Of a DNA stretch of 64,000 nucleotides, positions 16,494-26,605 are shown one piece after another (positions within the stretch are counted from its first letter, which is position 1; the number at the start of each line of letters is the position of its first letter). A program made the position numbers and the translations under genes. This stretch comes from Collinsella aerofaciens. Its GTDB lineage: Bacteria; Actinomycetota; Coriobacteriia; Coriobacteriales; Coriobacteriaceae. Under the pieces are notes generated by a model. That model worked only from the letters and a program-made list of their open reading frames with translations, did not search any database and was not told the origin of the DNA. The stretch covers positions 744,001 to 808,000 of the forward strand of contig NZ_OY725712.1 in assembly GCF_963360655.1 (NCBI RefSeq), written 5' to 3'.

Positions 16494-17420
16494 TTATGCC
16501 GAGACCTTAGCCTTGCGGCGTTTACGGACCGCATGGATCACGATGTCCAGCAGCAACAGCACAATGGCCACGACCACGATAAGCACGGCGAACTCGCGCT
16601 TGCCCCAGTGGCGGCCGGCCAGCGACTTTTGCTTGTCGACGTCCTTCTTGTTGTACTTGGTGCGCACGCAATGCACCAACAGGCGATGGTCGTTCACGCC
16701 GTAGGGCGTGCAGGTGACGAGCGTCACCTTGTCGGCACCGGGCTCGATGGTCAGCGACTCCATCTCCTCGGGCAGCACCACCTCGGAGTCCACCATCTTG
16801 TAGGCGAGCGTCTTATTCATGGTGTGCAGCAGCACCAGGTCGCCGGGCTCCAGCGAATGGATGTCGTCGAACATACTCAGGTTGCGCATGCCCGAGTGCG
16901 CGGTGAGCACGCAATGCGTCGAGGTGCCACCCACCGGCAGGCTCGTGCCCTCCAGGTGGCCGACGCCCGCCATGAGGACTTCTTCGCTCGTGCCGTGGTA
17001 GATGGGCATACTCACATCGATGGAGGGGATCTCGACCCAGCTCATCATGGGGTCGCGGTCAAAGATGAGCTGCTGGGCGTAGGGCTCGATCTGGTCGGCG
17101 GGAAGCTCGGTGGCCTCGCCCGCCAGCTGCTCGTTATAGGAGCGCGCCTGGAGCAGGATGCGCTCACGCTCCTCTTCAGACAGCGCATCCACGGTGCTGG
17201 ACACGGTGCTGATCTGGTTGAACACGCCCGAGGCCTCGAGCCGGTCCAAGATCCACGGCCAGGTCATAAGGCCCACGCCAATAAGGATGATGACGATGGT
17301 GATGAGCCGGTCGGCCCAGCGCGGCAGCCGCTTGCGGCGGCGCTTGGGTTTGGGCTGAGGGCTTGAGCCGCCGTTGTCCGCGGCGTTATTGCTCTTCATA
17401 TGTTTGGCGCCCTGCACCAT
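16494..17420 (-). CDS. Class C (pilin-polymerising) sortase
   Basis: A 308-residue membrane transpeptidase that links pilins through their sorting signals. A basic N-terminus precedes one membrane helix (about residues 37-58). The catalytic residues are visible: His in HCVLTAHSGM (about 175), Cys in TLVTCTPYGVN (about 237) and Arg in the following HRLLVHCVR. A second C-terminal membrane helix (about 276-297) is typical of class C. The ATG has GAGGAG upstream. The three pilin-like substrates lie further upstream on the same strand, but two AbiE-like genes and a terminator now separate them, so the sortase is probably transcribed separately. Confidence 0.92.
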   Translation of the reverse strand: MVQGAKHMKSNNAADNGGSSPQPKPKRRRKRLPRWADRLITIVIILIGVGLMTWPWILDRLEASGVFNQISTVSSTVDALSEEERERILLQARSYNEQLAGEATELPADQIEPYAQQLIFDRDPMMSWVEIPSIDVSMPIYHGTSEEVLMAGVGHLEGTSLPVGGTSTHCVLTAHSGMRNLSMFDDIHSLEPGDLVLLHTMNKTLAYKMVDSEVVLPEEMESLTIEPGADKVTLVTCTPYGVNDHRLLVHCVRTKYNKKDVDKQKSLAGRHWGKREFAVLIVVVAIVLLLLDIVIHAVRKRRKAKVSA

Positions 17421-17530: not shown

Positions 17531-18304
17531 TCAACCAATCAAGCCATATGTTGCTTTCATCGTCTCGAGCAACTGCACCATCGTTGCGCCCGCAACCCCA
17601 ATCTGTTTCAGATTGACGTCGCCCACCTCGCAATCTTTAACAAACGCAAGCATATCGTCCTTCAGTTCTCCGCGCAGGTCGACGCCTTCCGACTCGCCAA
17701 GCAGCTGAGCAAGCCTCAGCGCATCGCGTTTATGCTTTTTTACCTTCTTCGAATCAACGTTCTCCCCCGCTTCCCTTCTGGCTTTTAGGTCGAGATACGC
17801 CTTCGCTTTGAACGGGACAATGTATTCCGTACCCAGGACCGAAACGCCGTCTACGGTCCGAATTCCCTGAAGGAACAAGCTGTAGTAAGCATCGTCCAAC
17901 AAAATTGCCGAAAGACTGCTTATGTTTTCATCAACGTGAATTGGCGCCGCATCAATCCCCTCACGACCCTTTAGAAAGTCGGGGCACTTCGCGAAGAGTT
18001 CGATCATATGGGGGTAACCCGGCCTCTTTGGCTCTGTAAACCGATAAAAACATGAGCCTTTACCTTCGCCCCAGCCGCAGCGGTAACCGCCATCACGCAC
18101 CAAAGTCCATATAGCTTCTGCCGTCTGAGGCAACCGGTCATCGGCGACAATTACCACATCAAAATCGTGAGTCATCCTAAACGGAAGTCCCGCCTCCGCG
18201 AGCAAAATGTCGCATGCCGTGCCGCCGATAAGAGCATACGATCCTACAGCTTCTTGCATATGCTGCTGAAATTCTTGGAGACCTTCTACAGCGCTTCTTG
18301 CCAT
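17531..18304 (-). CDS. AbiEii-like nucleotidyltransferase
   Basis: A 257-residue protein with the minimal nucleotidyltransferase motif: GGTACDILL (residues about 27-35) followed by RMTHDFDVVIV (about 43-53), which supplies the two catalytic aspartates in DFD. A later FKAKAYLDLKARR segment fits the AbiEii/AbiGii toxin family, which transfers nucleotides to targets such as tRNA acceptor ends. It overlaps the upstream partner by 19 nt, the gene order expected for an antitoxin-toxin (AbiEi-AbiEii) pair. Such pairs can give phage resistance by abortive infection. The AAAGGA site before the ATG supports the start. Confidence 0.75.
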   Translation of the reverse strand: MARSAVEGLQEFQQHMQEAVGSYALIGGTACDILLAEAGLPFRMTHDFDVVIVADDRLPQTAEAIWTLVRDGGYRCGWGEGKGSCFYRFTEPKRPGYPHMIELFAKCPDFLKGREGIDAAPIHVDENISSLSAILLDDAYYSLFLQGIRTVDGVSVLGTEYIVPFKAKAYLDLKARREAGENVDSKKVKKHKRDALRLAQLLGESEGVDLRGELKDDMLAFVKDCEVGDVNLKQIGVAGATMVQLLETMKATYGLIG

Positions 18305-19254
18305 GGATATTCCTTTCCAAACATGCGATCGACTTCGAGCTGAATTCGCTCATCGTCGATTGCCGCCAAAGATAGCGCAAGTGAAATGTCGTCGATACGG
18401 GAGGAGTTGGCAAACACGGGCGCATAGCGCCACACTTGGATCATCGCCGTTTCGTTATCCGGCAGTTCCCCGTCTGCGACTTCAAGGTCACGCAGCTCAC
18501 GCCATACACTTCTTAAGACAGCCTTTTGCTCCACGCCCGGCGCAGCGAGCATCGAACGCGCAGCGAGCGCCGTCTCCCCAGCGTCAGCAAGGCGATCGAT
18601 CTGTGGTGCCTTCCTTGCAAAAATAACCTTCGAGACAGGCGAGGAAAGCTCTGCAATGTGCTCACTGAGCAGTAGATCCACGACCACGGGTAACACAATG
18701 ACACGCCGTTCGCGCCGCTCGCGCCTTGCGAGCCCCCTGTCTACAAGCTCGGTTATGGCCTCACTCGCACGGCTTGCCGAAATCCCGAGCGCACGACAAA
18801 GGTCATCGGGATGATATGACTCCTGACCTGCTCCCCAGATTGCGGCAGCCTGCGCGTTGGGTGACATCTTGGTCGCGCGATTATGAAACCGGGCACCGCC
18901 TCTCTCCGTATAGGCAGCGCCCATAAATGGAAGAAAAGCCTGTCTACCGGGGCAAACAAAGTGAATCCCTTGCGCGACCAATGCCTTGCGCTGGCGCGCA
19001 TCGGCATCAGGGAACGAAATGACAACAGGAGCCTCCGAACGCAAGGTTAGCTGGCTATAGACCCTTTTGGCCTCGGGAAGCCCGACGCCAGTAGGCAAAC
19101 TTGCAAGCAAAAAAGAAAAACCATTTGCGTCAACGGCGCGGACCTCAATCGACCGCAGATGCAGCGGCAAGTGTGCGGATCCAGGCCAAGTTGTAGCCTT
19201 GGCGGAGAGGCCCAGTGCTTCTTGTAAGTAGGTAAGCGCTTCGTTCATTTCCAT
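18286..19254 (-). CDS. Putative AbiEi-like partner with winged helix
   Basis: A 322-residue protein, upstream of and overlapping the AbiEii-like toxin. A helix-turn-helix is suggested by DDLCRALGISASRASEAITELVDRG (about residues 148-172), followed by a basic wing RRERRERRVIVLP. The N-terminal 120 residues and the C-terminal region (about 190-322) are not recognised. By position it is the antitoxin and DNA-binding autoregulator. It is larger than the classical AbiEi, with the HTH in the middle, so it may be a variant family. The start is uncertain; ATG codons at 19254 and 19248 both have weak ribosome sites. A TTCCA-N8-TGGAA dyad lies about 15 nt upstream. Confidence 0.6.
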   Translation of the reverse strand: MEMNEALTYLQEALGLSAKATTWPGSAHLPLHLRSIEVRAVDANGFSFLLASLPTGVGLPEAKRVYSQLTLRSEAPVVISFPDADARQRKALVAQGIHFVCPGRQAFLPFMGAAYTERGGARFHNRATKMSPNAQAAAIWGAGQESYHPDDLCRALGISASRASEAITELVDRGLARRERRERRVIVLPVVVDLLLSEHIAELSSPVSKVIFARKAPQIDRLADAGETALAARSMLAAPGVEQKAVLRSVWRELRDLEVADGELPDNETAMIQVWRYAPVFANSSRIDDISLALSLAAIDDERIQLEVDRMFGKEYPWQEAL

Positions 19255-19767: not shown

Positions 19768-21525
19768 TTACTCCTGCTCGGACTCCTCAGCCTGCTTACG
19801 GCTGCGGACGAGGTGTGCCACGCCAATGCACAGCACCGCGCCGCCAGCAATCCAAGTGAAGGTCACGCCGTTAAGGCCGGTAAGCGGGAGGCCGGAGCCC
19901 TTCTGGTCGACAATGGTAAAGCTGAGTTTGCCGACTTCAGCTTTCGCGGAGTTCTGCTGGATGACATTTTCACCTGCCACAATGGCGCTCGTAGTTTCGG
20001 GCGTCACATCCGTACCGTCCTGATTGAGCGTGCGGCTGATAGTAAAGGTCACACCGCTTGCTGCGGAGTTATTGTAGCCAGGCGCAGGCTTAACCTCCTT
20101 GAGGATATAGGTGCTCTCGTCGAGGCCGACAACGTTAATCTTGCCGTTGCTGTCAGTTGTCAGAATTGCATTATCCTTAGTTGACGTCGTGGTACCGTCG
20201 GCCTTGATAAATTCGCTGGAGTCTTTCTCCTGTAGCGTGAACTGAACGCCTTCGAGGGTCTTGTGCTTGCCAGTCTCATCCTTGTCGTTACCAACCTTGG
20301 TGACGTCGATGCCGTAGGTGTAGTCGTAGGCAGGATGCGTAACCGTAGTGCCGGTACCGTCGGTGTGCGGGTTGTTGGAATAGGTCAGTTTTACCGTGTT
20401 TGTCTGGGCCTTACCGAGAATGTTCTCGTTAATCTTGCTAGCAACAAGTTTTGCCTGGTAGTTCACATAGACCTTTGAATTACCGCCAACGACAATGGGC
20501 TCACCGGCCTCATTCTTTACTTCTTTGAGATTATCGAAAGAGACAGTGAGTTTATTGTTGCTTTCCTCAGAAGGATAGTTCACTGTATAACAACTGTCCG
20601 CTACGACCGTATCGCCAATTTTGACCTTAACGACCGGCTTACCGTTCTCGTCGCATACCGGCACCATCGTAGAAGGAAGCTCGTCGGTAAAAGCATAGCT
20701 GTACTTAGTGTACGTATTGATGTTGCTAGCAACAGTGCCGGCAAGCTGATAATCAATCGGCTGCTCAGAGGCAGAGTCGGCGGACTTGTTGGGAGCACTG
20801 AAAACGTCCTTGCTATTGTCCGTAACAAACTTGCCGTTCTTGTCATCCTTGACGGCCTTGGTCACGTTGGGGACGTCCTTCTTGGGCTCCGCCTTTACAT
20901 CTTCACCACCGACGACAGTGAAGATTGGCGAGGTATAGGCGTCGGTATTGCCGTTGGCCGAATCGCTAGATGTGGTCGAACCAACATTTGCAGTCACAAA
21001 GAGCCAATAGCCGGTGTTTAAAGCCTTAAAGTCTCCCTTGCTGGAATCGCCTGGATTTGTCCAGGTTAGAGTCGAACCCTCAAGTGCGGCAGCAATCTTA
21101 TCCAACGTGGAGCCAGCGTCAACCTTGGCAGTCTGGCCAACATTATCACCGGCATTATCTTTAATGTACTTGGCCCAAGCCTGAGCGCCTGCATTCGCAT
21201 CAGGAGCCTTCGCGACGCCAGCAAATGCACCAGTCACAACATTCATAACATCAGGCGACGCCCAATCAATATCGGAAAGGATCTTATCGCCAGACCAGGC
21301 ACTTCCATCATAATTCTGCGTAACCTTTGCCTTGAAAATCTGGATGCCCTTAAAGGTTGTGTCCTTATAGGTCTTCTCGTCAATCTTTACATTGCCGTCC
21401 GTGGCCACCGTCGGCGTGACCGCAGCAAACGCCATCGTGACCGGGGCCATCACGCCGCCGAAGCTCAGCGCTGCTGTGAGGCCGGCGGTTACTGCCAGGC
21501 GTGCGATGTTCTTGCTCATGCTCAT
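19768..21525 (-). CDS. Major pilin (isopeptide-forming fimbrial backbone protein, LPLTG)
   Basis: A 585-residue surface protein. A signal peptide (about residues 1-35, ending AFA) is followed by pilin domains. The segment AEPKKDVPNVTKAV (about 210) matches the pilin motif whose lysine is joined by class C sortase. A SpaA-like Cna-B domain lies near 450-550, with GVQFTLQEKD and YILKEVKPAPGY carrying the usual Lys and Glu for isopeptide bonds. The C-terminus has LPLTG, a hydrophobic helix and a basic tail (RSRKQ). The ATG has CGGAGGA 8 nt upstream. It is the last gene of the three-gene pilin operon; being nearest the terminator and having a canonical LPXTG make it the likely shaft subunit. Confidence 0.88.
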   Translation of the reverse strand: MSMSKNIARLAVTAGLTAALSFGGVMAPVTMAFAAVTPTVATDGNVKIDEKTYKDTTFKGIQIFKAKVTQNYDGSAWSGDKILSDIDWASPDVMNVVTGAFAGVAKAPDANAGAQAWAKYIKDNAGDNVGQTAKVDAGSTLDKIAAALEGSTLTWTNPGDSSKGDFKALNTGYWLFVTANVGSTTSSDSANGNTDAYTSPIFTVVGGEDVKAEPKKDVPNVTKAVKDDKNGKFVTDNSKDVFSAPNKSADSASEQPIDYQLAGTVASNINTYTKYSYAFTDELPSTMVPVCDENGKPVVKVKIGDTVVADSCYTVNYPSEESNNKLTVSFDNLKEVKNEAGEPIVVGGNSKVYVNYQAKLVASKINENILGKAQTNTVKLTYSNNPHTDGTGTTVTHPAYDYTYGIDVTKVGNDKDETGKHKTLEGVQFTLQEKDSSEFIKADGTTTSTKDNAILTTDSNGKINVVGLDESTYILKEVKPAPGYNNSAASGVTFTISRTLNQDGTDVTPETTSAIVAGENVIQQNSAKAEVGKLSFTIVDQKGSGLPLTGLNGVTFTWIAGGAVLCIGVAHLVRSRKQAEESEQE

Positions 21526-21633
21526 CTTCTTTTCCTCCGTTTTCCGGTTGGTTCTCATTTGATCGGTCATCATCTGTCTGTGTCTTAGCATCTGCTTCGC
21601 TACGTCTCGCCCCGCTCTCTGCGGGGCTGCCAG

Positions 21634-23298
21634 CTACTCTTTATGGCTGCCACCTCCCCGCTTGACCAGGAGCGCGACCACGATGAGCGCGGCTCCGGCG
21701 ACCGCTGCGGCGGCCGCGGCGTACATTGCCATATCGCCAGTCGAGGGCATAAAGCCTCCGGTGGTAATGCTAGGGGGTGTGCCGGTGGGCGTGTTGATGA
21801 GCGACGCCTCCAGGCTGCCCGTCGACCCGTCCGCGCTGTCGGCGCGCAGGGGCGACTCGGCCGTGATGGTGAGCTTGGGCTTGGCGGCGGCCACCTGGTC
21901 GACGTCCAGGCCCTCGGCCTTGACCGTCACGGAGCGCGTGCCCTTAAAGGCGGTGTAGCCCTTGGGCGCCTTGAGCTCGCGGACCTCCAGCTTGCCCGAG
22001 TCCACGCCCGAGACGGTCACGCGGCCGTCCTCGCCCGTGGTGACGGTGGCCTTGCCCTCCGCATCCCACGTGCCGTCGGCCGCCAGCGTGCGGCCGCGGT
22101 CGTCGGCGATGCTCAGGACCGCCCCGGCAAGCGGCTTGTCGCCGTCGCTACTGCGCTTGGTGAGCGCGAGATCCCAGGTGTAGGCGCACGCATCGTCGCT
22201 CGGCGTGCGGGCAAAGCCCGCGTCGCCGGACTGGTCGGTAAAGGGAGAGCGCGGGTAGCGCAGGTAGACCTCGTTGGGGTTGCCCTTCGCGATGCCGTGG
22301 TTGCACGCGCTGTTGAGCGGCGCGTTGTACACGGCGACCACGCGGGCGCCCGCGGCGAAGGCGTCGGCCCCGCCGAGCGCGGCGATCAGGTCGCCGGTGC
22401 GCACGGTGAAGGTCTTACCGTCGACCGAGACCCCGCACTGGGCCGTGATGTCGGTCCAGCCCTTCGCGGGCTCGGTGCCGGCGCGGCCGTCCTTGCCGGT
22501 CGAGACGGCGTCAAAGCCGCCGTCCGCGCCCGCCGCCACGTACACGCGCATGCTCGCGGCCACCTTGGAGGGGTCGAGCCCCGCGCTCATGGTGTCGACG
22601 AACCGCACCGTATAGGTGTCGTAGGCCGTGAGCCCCGCCGGGACCGTGGCCGAGAGGCGCCAGTACAGGTCGTCGGCGACCGTGGCGTCGGCGGCCTTCT
22701 GCCAGGCGGCGGTGCCGTCCTCCAGCACGTGCTTGGACACCTTGGGCGTCGCCGCCTTGGGCTTGACGGTGACGGCGCTGCCGCCCACCAGGGCCATGAT
22801 CGGCGCGGTGCCGACCTCGCCTTGGGCGATGGCGTCGTCGTCGGCGACGATGAGCCAGTAGCCGCAGTGCAGCTCGGCCGCCGTACCCGCGTTAAGGGCC
22901 ACGAACACGGCGCCAGAGCTCTGGAGGGAACGAGCGAGCTGTGCGCTCAGCGCGCTCGTAAGGTGGGAATCGGTGTTGAGCCACTCGGCAGCTTCCTGCG
23001 CGGTGGTCTGGGAATTGGGCATGCCGGCGCTGTGCAGCACAGGCAGTGCGGCGTCGCGCGCGGCGTCGCTTGCCCAGGTGAGGTCGGTGGCGATCTTGGC
23101 GTCGCTGTCGCCGTCGACGACGTTGGCGCTAAAGATCTGGTAGGCGTCGTAGCTGCTCGCCACGGTGCCGCTCACCGTGATGGAACCGGTCGAGGTCGGC
23201 GCGGCCTGCGCGGAAGCGGGGAACACAACCGCGCAGGTGCCGACCACGAGGGCAAGCAGCGCAAACAAGATCGGGAAGGAGCAAACTTTCTTATTCAC
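21634..23298 (-). CDS. Pilin-like LPXTG-class surface protein (MPSTG signal)
   Basis: A 554-residue surface protein. A signal peptide with a long hydrophobic core (SFPILFALLALVVGTCAVV) ends at AQA. The pilin motif VKPKAATPKVSKHV is at about 170-185. A Cna-B-type domain (AGAVLSIADDRG...LEVRELKAPKGY) lies near residues 400-480. The sorting signal is FMPSTGD rather than LPXTG, followed by a long Ala/Val membrane helix and KRGGGSHKE. The GTG start overlaps the tip gene's TAA and has AAGGGAGGT upstream, so translation is coupled. The GC content is clearly higher than in the flanking pilin genes. It is probably a minor or basal pilin; a second backbone is possible. Confidence 0.82.
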   Translation of the reverse strand: MNKKVCSFPILFALLALVVGTCAVVFPASAQAAPTSTGSITVSGTVASSYDAYQIFSANVVDGDSDAKIATDLTWASDAARDAALPVLHSAGMPNSQTTAQEAAEWLNTDSHLTSALSAQLARSLQSSGAVFVALNAGTAAELHCGYWLIVADDDAIAQGEVGTAPIMALVGGSAVTVKPKAATPKVSKHVLEDGTAAWQKAADATVADDLYWRLSATVPAGLTAYDTYTVRFVDTMSAGLDPSKVAASMRVYVAAGADGGFDAVSTGKDGRAGTEPAKGWTDITAQCGVSVDGKTFTVRTGDLIAALGGADAFAAGARVVAVYNAPLNSACNHGIAKGNPNEVYLRYPRSPFTDQSGDAGFARTPSDDACAYTWDLALTKRSSDGDKPLAGAVLSIADDRGRTLAADGTWDAEGKATVTTGEDGRVTVSGVDSGKLEVRELKAPKGYTAFKGTRSVTVKAEGLDVDQVAAAKPKLTITAESPLRADSADGSTGSLEASLINTPTGTPPSITTGGFMPSTGDMAMYAAAAAAVAGAALIVVALLVKRGGGSHKE

Positions 23299-26200
23299 GA
23301 CGCTCACCTCCCTTCGCATTCGCCTTGCGACGAATGTGCATCCAGGCTGCAGCAGCGCAAAGCACCGCCGCGCCGGCAAGGTACGTCAGAGTGACGCCCG
23401 ACATACCAGAAAGGGGCAAAGAGGTGGAGTAGGTGTTGGTGAAGGTGGAGACGGGAATGATGGTTGGGTCCGCACCGGCGGAGGTTTGAACCGCGACGCC
23501 CTGCCCGTTCTTGCCAAGGGTGTTGCCCATGTCGTCCTTCATCTGCGTAACGGTGGTAGAGGTGGTAAGACCGGTGTACTTGCCAGTGGTCTCATTCATG
23601 ACGGCCTTCACCGTGACGGCAACCTGGTACTCGGCCTTGGAGTAGCGGAGCTTATCGATGGCACCGGTGGTAGGCGCGACCTCCTTCACCGTGTAGGTGT
23701 AGGTCTTGGCGTAATCTTTATTGGTGCCTGCTTCAGTGGACAGGTGCGACTTGTTGAACGTCATGGCGCCAAAGGTCGCCGTGATGTTGTTGAGCTTGGC
23801 GGCATCGGTCTCCCCTGCCTTTGGGGCAACAGAAATCTTGGGCGCTTCGGGCATGGGGGCTTTGGCTGCATAGTCACCCGTAGCCACAACGCTGAACTCG
23901 AACGGCACATAGTTGTCGTCAGCATCCTTCGGCCAATCCGTATTGCGAACGGATTTGGTCACCGGGATCTTCACGGACGTAGCACTGCACTTGTCGGAGA
24001 TGTACGTAGTGCCACTATCGATGCTCAGCTGCTCGTTCTCTTTCCACGTAATGGAGCCGTTTGTGCTGTCCACCGTGAACTTGTAGGTGTTCTTGTTCAG
24101 TTCGTAGCCAAACGGAGCCTGGGTCTCAACAAGCGTGTACGTGCCCGGCAGCAGGCCCTCGAGCTTGAACTTGCCAGGCGCGGTGTCGGTGTCTACCCAC
24201 GTGGTATCGCTCGAAGTCGACTGGTCGCTCACCTGATCTCTCACGGTCCAGGACTGGTTAACGGCCGCACCATCGGCGTCATTAGTCTTGGTGAGTTTCC
24301 ACTCAGAACCAGCCAAAGGAGTGTGTTTTGTGTCGCCCTCCCCCACCTTGGTCCAAGACACCGTACCGGTGATGATCTTGGTGTTGGGAATGGCACCTGT
24401 GGGGTTATTCTCGAACGGAACATTTTTGCCGTTCTCATCCACGTAACCCTGAACGTAGTTCGGCTTCTCGCCAGTATTGTTCATAGTGGCATAGTAGATG
24501 GTGTCTGACTTCTGGTAGCCAGCCGGCGCCGTCTCCTCTTTGATGTAATACGTGAAGTAGTTGGTATCGTTGGAATTGCCGATGTTTGCCTTCTGGTTCA
24601 GATAGTTGAACTGAAGCTTGCCATCACCCGAAGCGTAATCATTTGCGCCACCGTCAGTCACCGTCACGATAGCGTCCTTGCCCGCGACAGCATTCTCGAC
24701 AGAACCATAGATAGCCCACGAGGAACCAGGAAGCGACGTGTTGCCGTTCGCCGCATCGACCTTGCTCCACGCAACGGCGGAGCCGTCGGGCGTATACGAC
24801 CCAGACCACGGGAAGTTGTGACGCTCCTGATCCATATCGATGACGGAAGCCGAGTTACCCTCACCAAATGCTGCGGCAACCTTCGGGCTGTTCATTGAGA
24901 AATCGACGCCCACATAAACGCGGCCGTTGGTAGTCACATGGTCGTCGAAACTTCCGTTGGGAACGAGAATCGATCCGATCATAGCCGCCGCAGGATCGTC
25001 GTCAGTCCACTTGGCACCGGTGGCTGTGCCGCCGTATCCCCAGTCCGCGCGGTTTTCTCCCGCGATGCCGCCTCGAATGGTAAGGCTTTGCGTATCGACA
25101 AAGTTCCACATGATGGACTGGGAAGCCGTCGCGTATGCCTCGCCCAGCTCCTTGCCGGAATATTGAGTTTCGTAACCACGCGAAATCTCGGTACCGTTCC
25201 ACCAAAAGCGCCAGCCATTGTGAAACTCAATATTCGAAGGTCCGGTAACGTTCACAACAACCGAGGCGCCCTTGGGAATGCCCTCGAATGCGAAATCAAC
25301 GCCACGATAATACTCGTTGTTGTATGTATTGCTCAGCTGAGAAGCATCGATGGTGAACACCTGCTGCATAGAGGTGTTGTCGCCCTTAAACGTGATAAGA
25401 CGCTCGCTATTCTTGAATTTCTTACCATTGAGCGACGTATCGGCGCAGTCCGAATATATGGTCTTATACGACTCATCAAACACCAGGCCATAATTACAAT
25501 CCGTCTTGTCGTACTTGTTGATTACGTAGTTGTTGTGATTGCTCGCGAAACCAACCTCGAGCGTGCCGGTATTTGCAAACGAGTTGAGCTGTTTCGATAG
25601 CTTCGAGAGGTACCCATCTTCACCGTTGTAGCTCGAATAATCGTTATTGTTGACATTAGTCAAATCAACAGTTTGATTGAACAGGTTGCTTTCCTGAGAG
25701 TTCTTGCCCTCGTACCAATTACCCTGCGTTGTCACCACGGATTGGCGTTCATTGTTATCGCGCCAGTATGTGATGGGGCCTGCGATCTGCGCAGTGTAGG
25801 CAAAGCCGGAAGGAGTCGCGCCCTCAGAAGATTTCTGCCGTCCGACCCAAGCGCCTTTCTTCCAAGCGCCAACGGTAGTCGTCTCCGGCGAGTCGCCGCT
25901 ATAACCAACGCTCATCTTGGTGATCGCACTTTTAATTCCGGCCACCGCAAGCACGGTGCTGCCGGCGACAGGACGGAACTGGGAACCAAAACCAACGGTG
26001 CCAAAGCGGAAACCAGCACCAATTGATTGATAGGGCCAGCTCTCTTTGACTGGATTCATGGCAAGCTTGCCACGGACCAAGGTAAGGCCCTCCGCCTCAG
26101 CGGCATATGAGCCGGTGGGGGCGTTCTTCGCATCAAGATTACTAGTGTCGCTCGGCTTACCACCGATGTACATGTCGCGGCCGACGTAGGTGGCCACGCC

Positions 26201-26605
26201 GGAATCGGGGGTGGAGACATCGATATTCGTACCGATACCGATAGACGTGGGAACATAAATTCCCTTCTCCACGGTGGCCGTCGCTCTCGCTGAAGCCGCA
26301 TTCGCACTCTGAGCCTGCTCAGCACTATTTGAAGAGCCAGCCTCGCCGCCATTGGTCTCGTCGCTATTCTGGTTTTCGGCATCCTCGCTGGTGTTATCTA
26401 CAGCAGCGGACTCACTTGAGGAACCCCCCCCCATCACAGTTTCCTCGGTAGAATCTGTCTGGGCGTCGTTGGCAATGGCCTGCGAGATCGGAGGCATGAC
26501 GAGCGACAGTACCAGGCTCAAAACGGAGGCTCCGCACAAAACGCCTGCCAGTACACGGCGCGTCGCTTTATTACTCTGCTTAAATTTGTCCGAATTCGCT
26601 TTCAT
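23291..26605 (-). CDS. Large pilus tip adhesin candidate (LPLSG signal) with internal G9 tract
   Basis: A 1104-residue secreted protein. A signal peptide (about residues 18-45, ending IANDA) is followed by a Ser/Glu/Asn-rich linker (about 50-105). A large unassigned N-terminal region (about 110-600) is probably the binding domain. Then come SpaA-like repeats (TGTVSWTKVGEGD...GSEWKLTKT) and a Spy0128/FctA-type isopeptide domain (about 890-1050). It ends in LPLSG, a membrane helix and MHIRRKAN. A run of nine G residues covers codons 58-61 and could switch expression by slippage. It is the first gene of the operon, as expected for a tip or ancillary pilin. The ATG follows GGAGGAG. Confidence 0.85.
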   Translation of the reverse strand: MKANSDKFKQSNKATRRVLAGVLCGASVLSLVLSLVMPPISQAIANDAQTDSTEETVMGGGSSSESAAVDNTSEDAENQNSDETNGGEAGSSNSAEQAQSANAASARATATVEKGIYVPTSIGIGTNIDVSTPDSGVATYVGRDMYIGGKPSDTSNLDAKNAPTGSYAAEAEGLTLVRGKLAMNPVKESWPYQSIGAGFRFGTVGFGSQFRPVAGSTVLAVAGIKSAITKMSVGYSGDSPETTTVGAWKKGAWVGRQKSSEGATPSGFAYTAQIAGPITYWRDNNERQSVVTTQGNWYEGKNSQESNLFNQTVDLTNVNNNDYSSYNGEDGYLSKLSKQLNSFANTGTLEVGFASNHNNYVINKYDKTDCNYGLVFDESYKTIYSDCADTSLNGKKFKNSERLITFKGDNTSMQQVFTIDASQLSNTYNNEYYRGVDFAFEGIPKGASVVVNVTGPSNIEFHNGWRFWWNGTEISRGYETQYSGKELGEAYATASQSIMWNFVDTQSLTIRGGIAGENRADWGYGGTATGAKWTDDDPAAAMIGSILVPNGSFDDHVTTNGRVYVGVDFSMNSPKVAAAFGEGNSASVIDMDQERHNFPWSGSYTPDGSAVAWSKVDAANGNTSLPGSSWAIYGSVENAVAGKDAIVTVTDGGANDYASGDGKLQFNYLNQKANIGNSNDTNYFTYYIKEETAPAGYQKSDTIYYATMNNTGEKPNYVQGYVDENGKNVPFENNPTGAIPNTKIITGTVSWTKVGEGDTKHTPLAGSEWKLTKTNDADGAAVNQSWTVRDQVSDQSTSSDTTWVDTDTAPGKFKLEGLLPGTYTLVETQAPFGYELNKNTYKFTVDSTNGSITWKENEQLSIDSGTTYISDKCSATSVKIPVTKSVRNTDWPKDADDNYVPFEFSVVATGDYAAKAPMPEAPKISVAPKAGETDAAKLNNITATFGAMTFNKSHLSTEAGTNKDYAKTYTYTVKEVAPTTGAIDKLRYSKAEYQVAVTVKAVMNETTGKYTGLTTSTTVTQMKDDMGNTLGKNGQGVAVQTSAGADPTIIPVSTFTNTYSTSLPLSGMSGVTLTYLAGAAVLCAAAAWMHIRRKANAKGGERRE
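26424..26432 (-). repeat. G9 homopolymer in the tip adhesin gene (possible phase-variation tract)
   Basis: Nine consecutive C on the plus strand are nine G in the coding strand (codons 58-61, Met-Gly-Gly-Gly). Tracts of this length early in surface-protein genes are classical sites of slipped-strand frameshifting. The current length keeps the frame open. Confidence 0.6.

Follow-up and report, generated by a model that had tools for sequence, protein, structure and literature searches.

Phase variation of sortase-dependent pili by a homopolymeric tract has been demonstrated in Bifidobacterium breve, in which a poly-G tract turns the initial gene of sortase-pilus clusters ON or OFF (PMC9187656). 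In strain UCC2003, two such clusters are switched in this way, through first-gene G-tracts in bbr_0113 and bbr_1889; mutagenesis of the G count placing the two ORFs in frame resulted in visible pili, and deep sequencing revealed mixed tract lengths, the proportions of which shifted in mice (PMC9187656). That study, including its Table 1, covers Bifidobacterium only. A similar principle operates at the contingency loci of Neisseria and Campylobacter, in which intragenic poly-G tracts flip the reading frame of surface proteins, with several such genes per genome.

We analyzed a stretch of 64 kb (hereafter referred to as the window) from a 2.3-Mb draft Collinsella genome (G000, contig C1, positions 744001-808000), containing a pilus locus with nine consecutive G residues in its first gene. 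Like the Bifidobacterium systems with which it was compared, including those of Bifidobacterium longum, B. dentium, B. bifidum and B. pseudocatenulatum, this locus is a sortase-pilus cluster with its own sortase, in which an intragenic first-gene G-tract (8-13 G) is placed between the export signal and the LPXTG portion. The short leader ORF of the OFF state is also of similar size (65 aa in bbr_1889a versus 64-68 aa in Collinsella), and polarity on the downstream genes is proposed for both. Nevertheless, there are several differences. Collinsella belongs to a different class of Actinomycetota, the Coriobacteriia, and its assembly is ON at G9, as judged from sequence alone, whereas B. breve UCC2003 is annotated as OFF. 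The Collinsella tract follows the signal peptide (codon 58), whereas the tracts of B. biavatii and B. amazonense precede it. Most Bifidobacterium relatives of the adhesin were only 35-41% identical to it, and a G/C run of at least 8 was found near the start of the matched region in seven of the 39 relatives examined. The difference in tract position suggests that the tract probably arose in parallel, rather than by simple inheritance from Bifidobacterium. The preliminary description of this DNA stated that phase-variable pili are rarely reported in Coriobacteriia, and this still stands: a full-text search, with most subscription journals outside its reach and papers judged by title and abstract, retrieved no publication dealing with phase variation in this genus.

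Organization of the pilus locus

All the genes of the locus lie on the reverse strand. The first encodes a putative pilus-tip adhesin of 1104 aa (23291-26605) with a signal peptide, a SpaA prealbumin-like domain at residues 748-855 (PF17802, 5.5e-19) and a C-terminal LPxTG-like sorting signal consisting of LPLSG, a transmembrane segment and RRK. It is followed by a second, minor pilin (21634-23298), with a SpaA domain and a weak GramPos_pilinBB match in Pfam, and by a third pilin, probably the backbone (19768-21591), with GramPos_pilinBB and SpaA domains and an LPLTG motif; SpaA prealbumin-like domains were thus identified by Pfam in the tip and in both the pilins following it. The dedicated sortase (about 16494-17420; PF04203) has a class-C-like C-terminal transmembrane segment. 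The GTG start codon of the second pilin (position 23298) overlaps the TAA stop codon of the tip gene within GTGAATAA (23291-23298, reverse strand) and is preceded by a good Shine-Dalgarno sequence, GGGAGGTGA, an arrangement suggesting that the second pilin is likely to be translationally coupled to the tip gene, in keeping with the coupling put forward in the preliminary description.

The gene order HAD hydrolase, tip, minor pilin, backbone and sortase is kept in most of the relatives (about 20), despite wide differences between their tip bodies and backbones. A two-gene pair separating the third pilin from the sortase (17531-19254) is found at the same place in some relatives only and is absent from others. 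It encodes a winged-helix protein (18286-19254) and a partner that appeared nucleotidyltransferase-like by eye (17531-18304; no Pfam or PADLOC hit). The arrangement of this pair recalls AbiE; PADLOC returned no hit for it.

The G9 tract and its expected frequency

The G9 tract (C9 on the forward strand) occupies positions 26424-26432 and begins on the third base of codon 58 (ATG) of the tip gene and ends on the second base of codon 61 (GGT), about 15 residues after the predicted end of the signal peptide in the 1104-aa ORF (26605-23291). The 173 nt located 5' of the tract (26433-26605, reverse strand) encode the signal peptide and a linker (hereafter referred to as the leader). The tract thus lies between the export signal and the LPXTG part of the protein, at codons 58-61 and just after the signal peptide, as the preliminary description had indicated. 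The further claim that the loss or gain of a single base would break the frame was borne out by simulation: indels of one or two bases in either direction led to a stop after 63-69 aa (stop at codons 64-69 for one base lost or gained), and the frame was lost with any net change in tract length not divisible by three.

No other homopolymer of at least 8, of any base, is present in the window. Dinucleotide shuffles of the window nevertheless yielded a mean of 2.2 matches for G8 runs, with at least two in 59 of 100 shuffles, so a run of this kind is unremarkable in this respect. As this null is uninformative, we relied on comparative evidence instead. Back-translation of the tip protein according to local codon usage produced a G/C run of at least 9 in 23 of 4000 sequences (0.6%). 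We consider the comparison among the genomes of the genus, described below, to provide the decisive evidence that the tract exceeds chance.

A 14-nt inverted repeat with arms 275 nt apart is present upstream of the tip gene. An invertible promoter was rejected, however, as relatives carry only degenerate versions of the arms, and every upstream region that could be aligned has the same orientation.

Tract length across the genus

We surveyed 43 Collinsella genomes, one per species, and obtained 19 orthologues with a readable leader. The tract was present at the same codon in 10 of these orthologues, with G9, in frame, in seven (G000, G001, G002, G003, G030, G031 and G034), G8, out of frame, in two (G018 and G010), and G10, also out of frame, in one (G005). 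Tract lengths of G8, G9 and G10 therefore occur between species, in and out of frame, rather than the uniform G9 that the preliminary description had named as speaking against phase variation. Seven orthologues had no tract, and two others (G004 and G007) had a run of four G in a rearranged gene, the tract having been lost. Wherever the whole gene was on one contig, the tract-free orthologues were full-length and in frame, as expected if only tract alleles flip.

In all three out-of-frame alleles (G8, G8 and G10), the indel lies exactly within the tract, the leader ends after 64-68 codons and more than 1000 downstream codons are open to the normal end; in G005, the TAA at the end of the frame is the gene's own stop codon, not a lesion. 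These natural alleles from three other species genomes, with their downstream frames intact, support the phase-variation reading put forward in the preliminary description. The 173 leader bases are 100% identical in G018 (G8), G030 (G9) and G034 (G9), indicating that tract length changes faster than point sequence.

The adhesin bodies behind this common leader and tract were barely alignable as DNA in several pairs. The leader and tract therefore behave as a module attached to exchangeable tips, and the comparison shows, at the level of sequence, a conserved 5' module before exchangeable adhesin bodies. Several types of tip body are found in the genus (L104-L122), with a leader and C-terminal end in common, and these types probably arose through recombination at these conserved ends, with exchange of alleles. 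The leader-tract pattern was absent from the public viral contigs scanned, and in the other genera of the order the matches were weak and confined to C-terminal or repeat domains, with no orthologous leader.

Other tract genes in the same genome

A pattern search for G8 runs in the G000 genome identified three more genes with tract lengths varying among relatives, encoding a CAP-domain protein, a second pilus tip and BrxA. The first encodes an LPXTG-like coiled-coil surface protein of 1151 aa (L136:3288-6743; G000 C6:650290-653742) and carries a G9 tract at codon 58, the same codon number as in the pilus-tip gene. Across G000 and its relatives, this gene was ON with G9 in eight cases and OFF with G10 in two (G006 and G008; stop at codon 61); one allele had no tract and another had an IS110-family element in the tract. 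The second pilus-tip gene (L137:1607-4876; G000 C1:1313106-1316372), which is followed by a DUF7601/FctA pilin gene, has a G10 tract inside the signal peptide and is OFF in G000, G023 and G011, whereas it has G9 and is ON in G001; the bodies of these four alleles are 94-100% identical. Another G7/G8 run, also of variable length, is located about 100 nt upstream of this tract.

The brxA gene (L166:9992-10744; G000 C6:277994-278743; relatives L211-L215) belongs to a BREX locus at which PADLOC identified BrxA, BrxB, BrxC and PglX. The tract, near the 5' end of the gene, comprised nine G in four genomes; in two others it was G10, out of frame with a likely GTG start, the position of which was deduced. 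The related Pgl system of Streptomyces phase-varies via a G tract in pglX (PMC4365076); brxA is a candidate for a phase-variable BREX system with the switch at a gene other than pglX.

The same search returned several runs that we judged to be no switch or artefactual: a G20 run upstream of a gene that appeared hisS-like by eye, a G9 run beside a transposase-like ORF and an apparently intergenic C11 run. A G40/G14/C29 cluster between inverted repeats (L127:2177-2329; G000 C6:692176-692328) looks like an assembly artefact.

The presence of such a cluster in the G000 assembly itself raises the question of whether the differences in tract length are sequencing or assembly errors, as miscalls are frequent at homopolymers and two-colour chemistry is known to generate poly-G artefacts. 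Although any one genome may contain such an error, we consider this explanation scarcely credible overall, because the G8 and G10 calls come from separate assemblies, four separate tract genes display the same pattern and an identical G9 was recovered for the pilus-tip gene in seven assemblies, some consisting of only 1-3 contigs. The out-of-frame alleles could also be seen as pseudogenes in decay, with the tract acting only as a mutational hotspot and no selection for switching, since a homopolymer is a hotspot whatever the gene and the tract is absent from several relatives. However, the three OFF alleles of the pilus tip and five OFF alleles of the two other surface-protein genes all keep more than 1000 downstream codons open, with no frameshift seen elsewhere in them; such a tract is present either after or within the signal-peptide region of three genes encoding surface proteins, and the low frequency of such runs in back-translations also argues against a mere hotspot. 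Decay is, thus, very unlikely to account for these alleles.

An IS110-family element inserted at G-runs

Several of these genomes contain an IS110-family element of 1.54 kb, assigned to this family by eye from its transposase (L154:497-2038, L191-L210 and L218). In all 10 insertions examined, the element is immediately preceded by five or more consecutive G, and it is this element that lies within the G9 tract of the gene for the CAP-domain protein in G023. The letters of its right end, ACTGTAATGGG, match those of the opening of the pilus tract, ACTGTAATGGGG, in four genomes, and the opening reads ACTGTGATGGGG in the others; the reversed pattern is rare. In the window, the letters of the right end are found at the tract opening, ACTGTRATGGGG (26424-26440, reverse strand), as they are in relatives L104 and L120-L122, and in G007 the letters after ACTGTRATGGGG are TGTTC, with which the left end of the element begins. 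The tract-free alleles also read AACTGTG at this site, suggesting that part of the match predates the tract.

Discussion

The variation of tract length between G8, G9 and G10 among related genomes strongly supports the interpretation of the G9 tract as a simple-sequence contingency switch, and we consider it highly probable that this tract turns the pilus on and off at random. According to this model, slipped-strand mispairing at replication would add or remove one G. With nine G, the exported leader and the adhesin body would share one reading frame, and the pilus-tip protein of 1104 aa would be synthesized; with eight or ten, translation of the natural alleles predicts termination after about 64-69 residues, before any functional domain. 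Such an early stop would remove translation from the start of the next pilin gene, which overlaps the tip-gene stop, and would probably also reduce transcription of the remaining genes of the locus through polarity, an effect supported in B. breve. Switching would be reversible, and a clonal population would therefore be a mix of piliated and bald cells. Mispairing, reversibility and polarity are proposed here because homopolymers generally behave in this way and by analogy with B. breve UCC2003. Among tracts known to switch, nine G is one of the shorter lengths, and switching may therefore be infrequent. Switching is not essential, given that seven of the 19 orthologues are tract-free and two more have lost the tract.

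G tracts of about this length can also cause transcriptional slippage. RNA polymerase slippage or ribosomal frameshifting would provide every genotype with some full-length protein, and the tract would then tune dose rather than act as an on/off switch. We find this improbable: a programmed RNA slip would not need the gene to be in frame, as it is in most relatives, and changing the genomic G count visibly altered piliation in B. breve (PMC9187656).

The mechanism is already established for Bifidobacterium pili, and the contingency switch proposed here for Collinsella extends it to another class. The more novel part is the possible existence of a phasome including brxA. We see even chances that Collinsella has a small phasome in which individual G9/G10 tracts switch the pilus of the window, the second pilus, the CAP-domain surface protein and brxA, with a G-run-inserting IS110-family element able to land in such a switch, as in one genome; a single chromosome would then give rise to mixed surface and phage-defence states. 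This set of genes would resemble the contingency loci of Neisseria and Campylobacter, but it concerns Gram-positive, sortase-anchored proteins, and its tracts are few (four found) and short (9-10 G).

These findings would carry slipped-strand pilus switching from Bifidobacterium to another class of Actinomycetota common in the gut. If this interpretation is correct, Collinsella isolates and metagenomes would contain mixtures of piliated and bald cells, and perhaps also of phage-resistant and phage-sensitive cells, single assemblies would mis-annotate adhesins as “broken”, and tract-level typing would be required in studies of the association of Collinsella strains with their hosts. The conserved leader-tract module before exchangeable adhesin bodies provides a ready comparative system.
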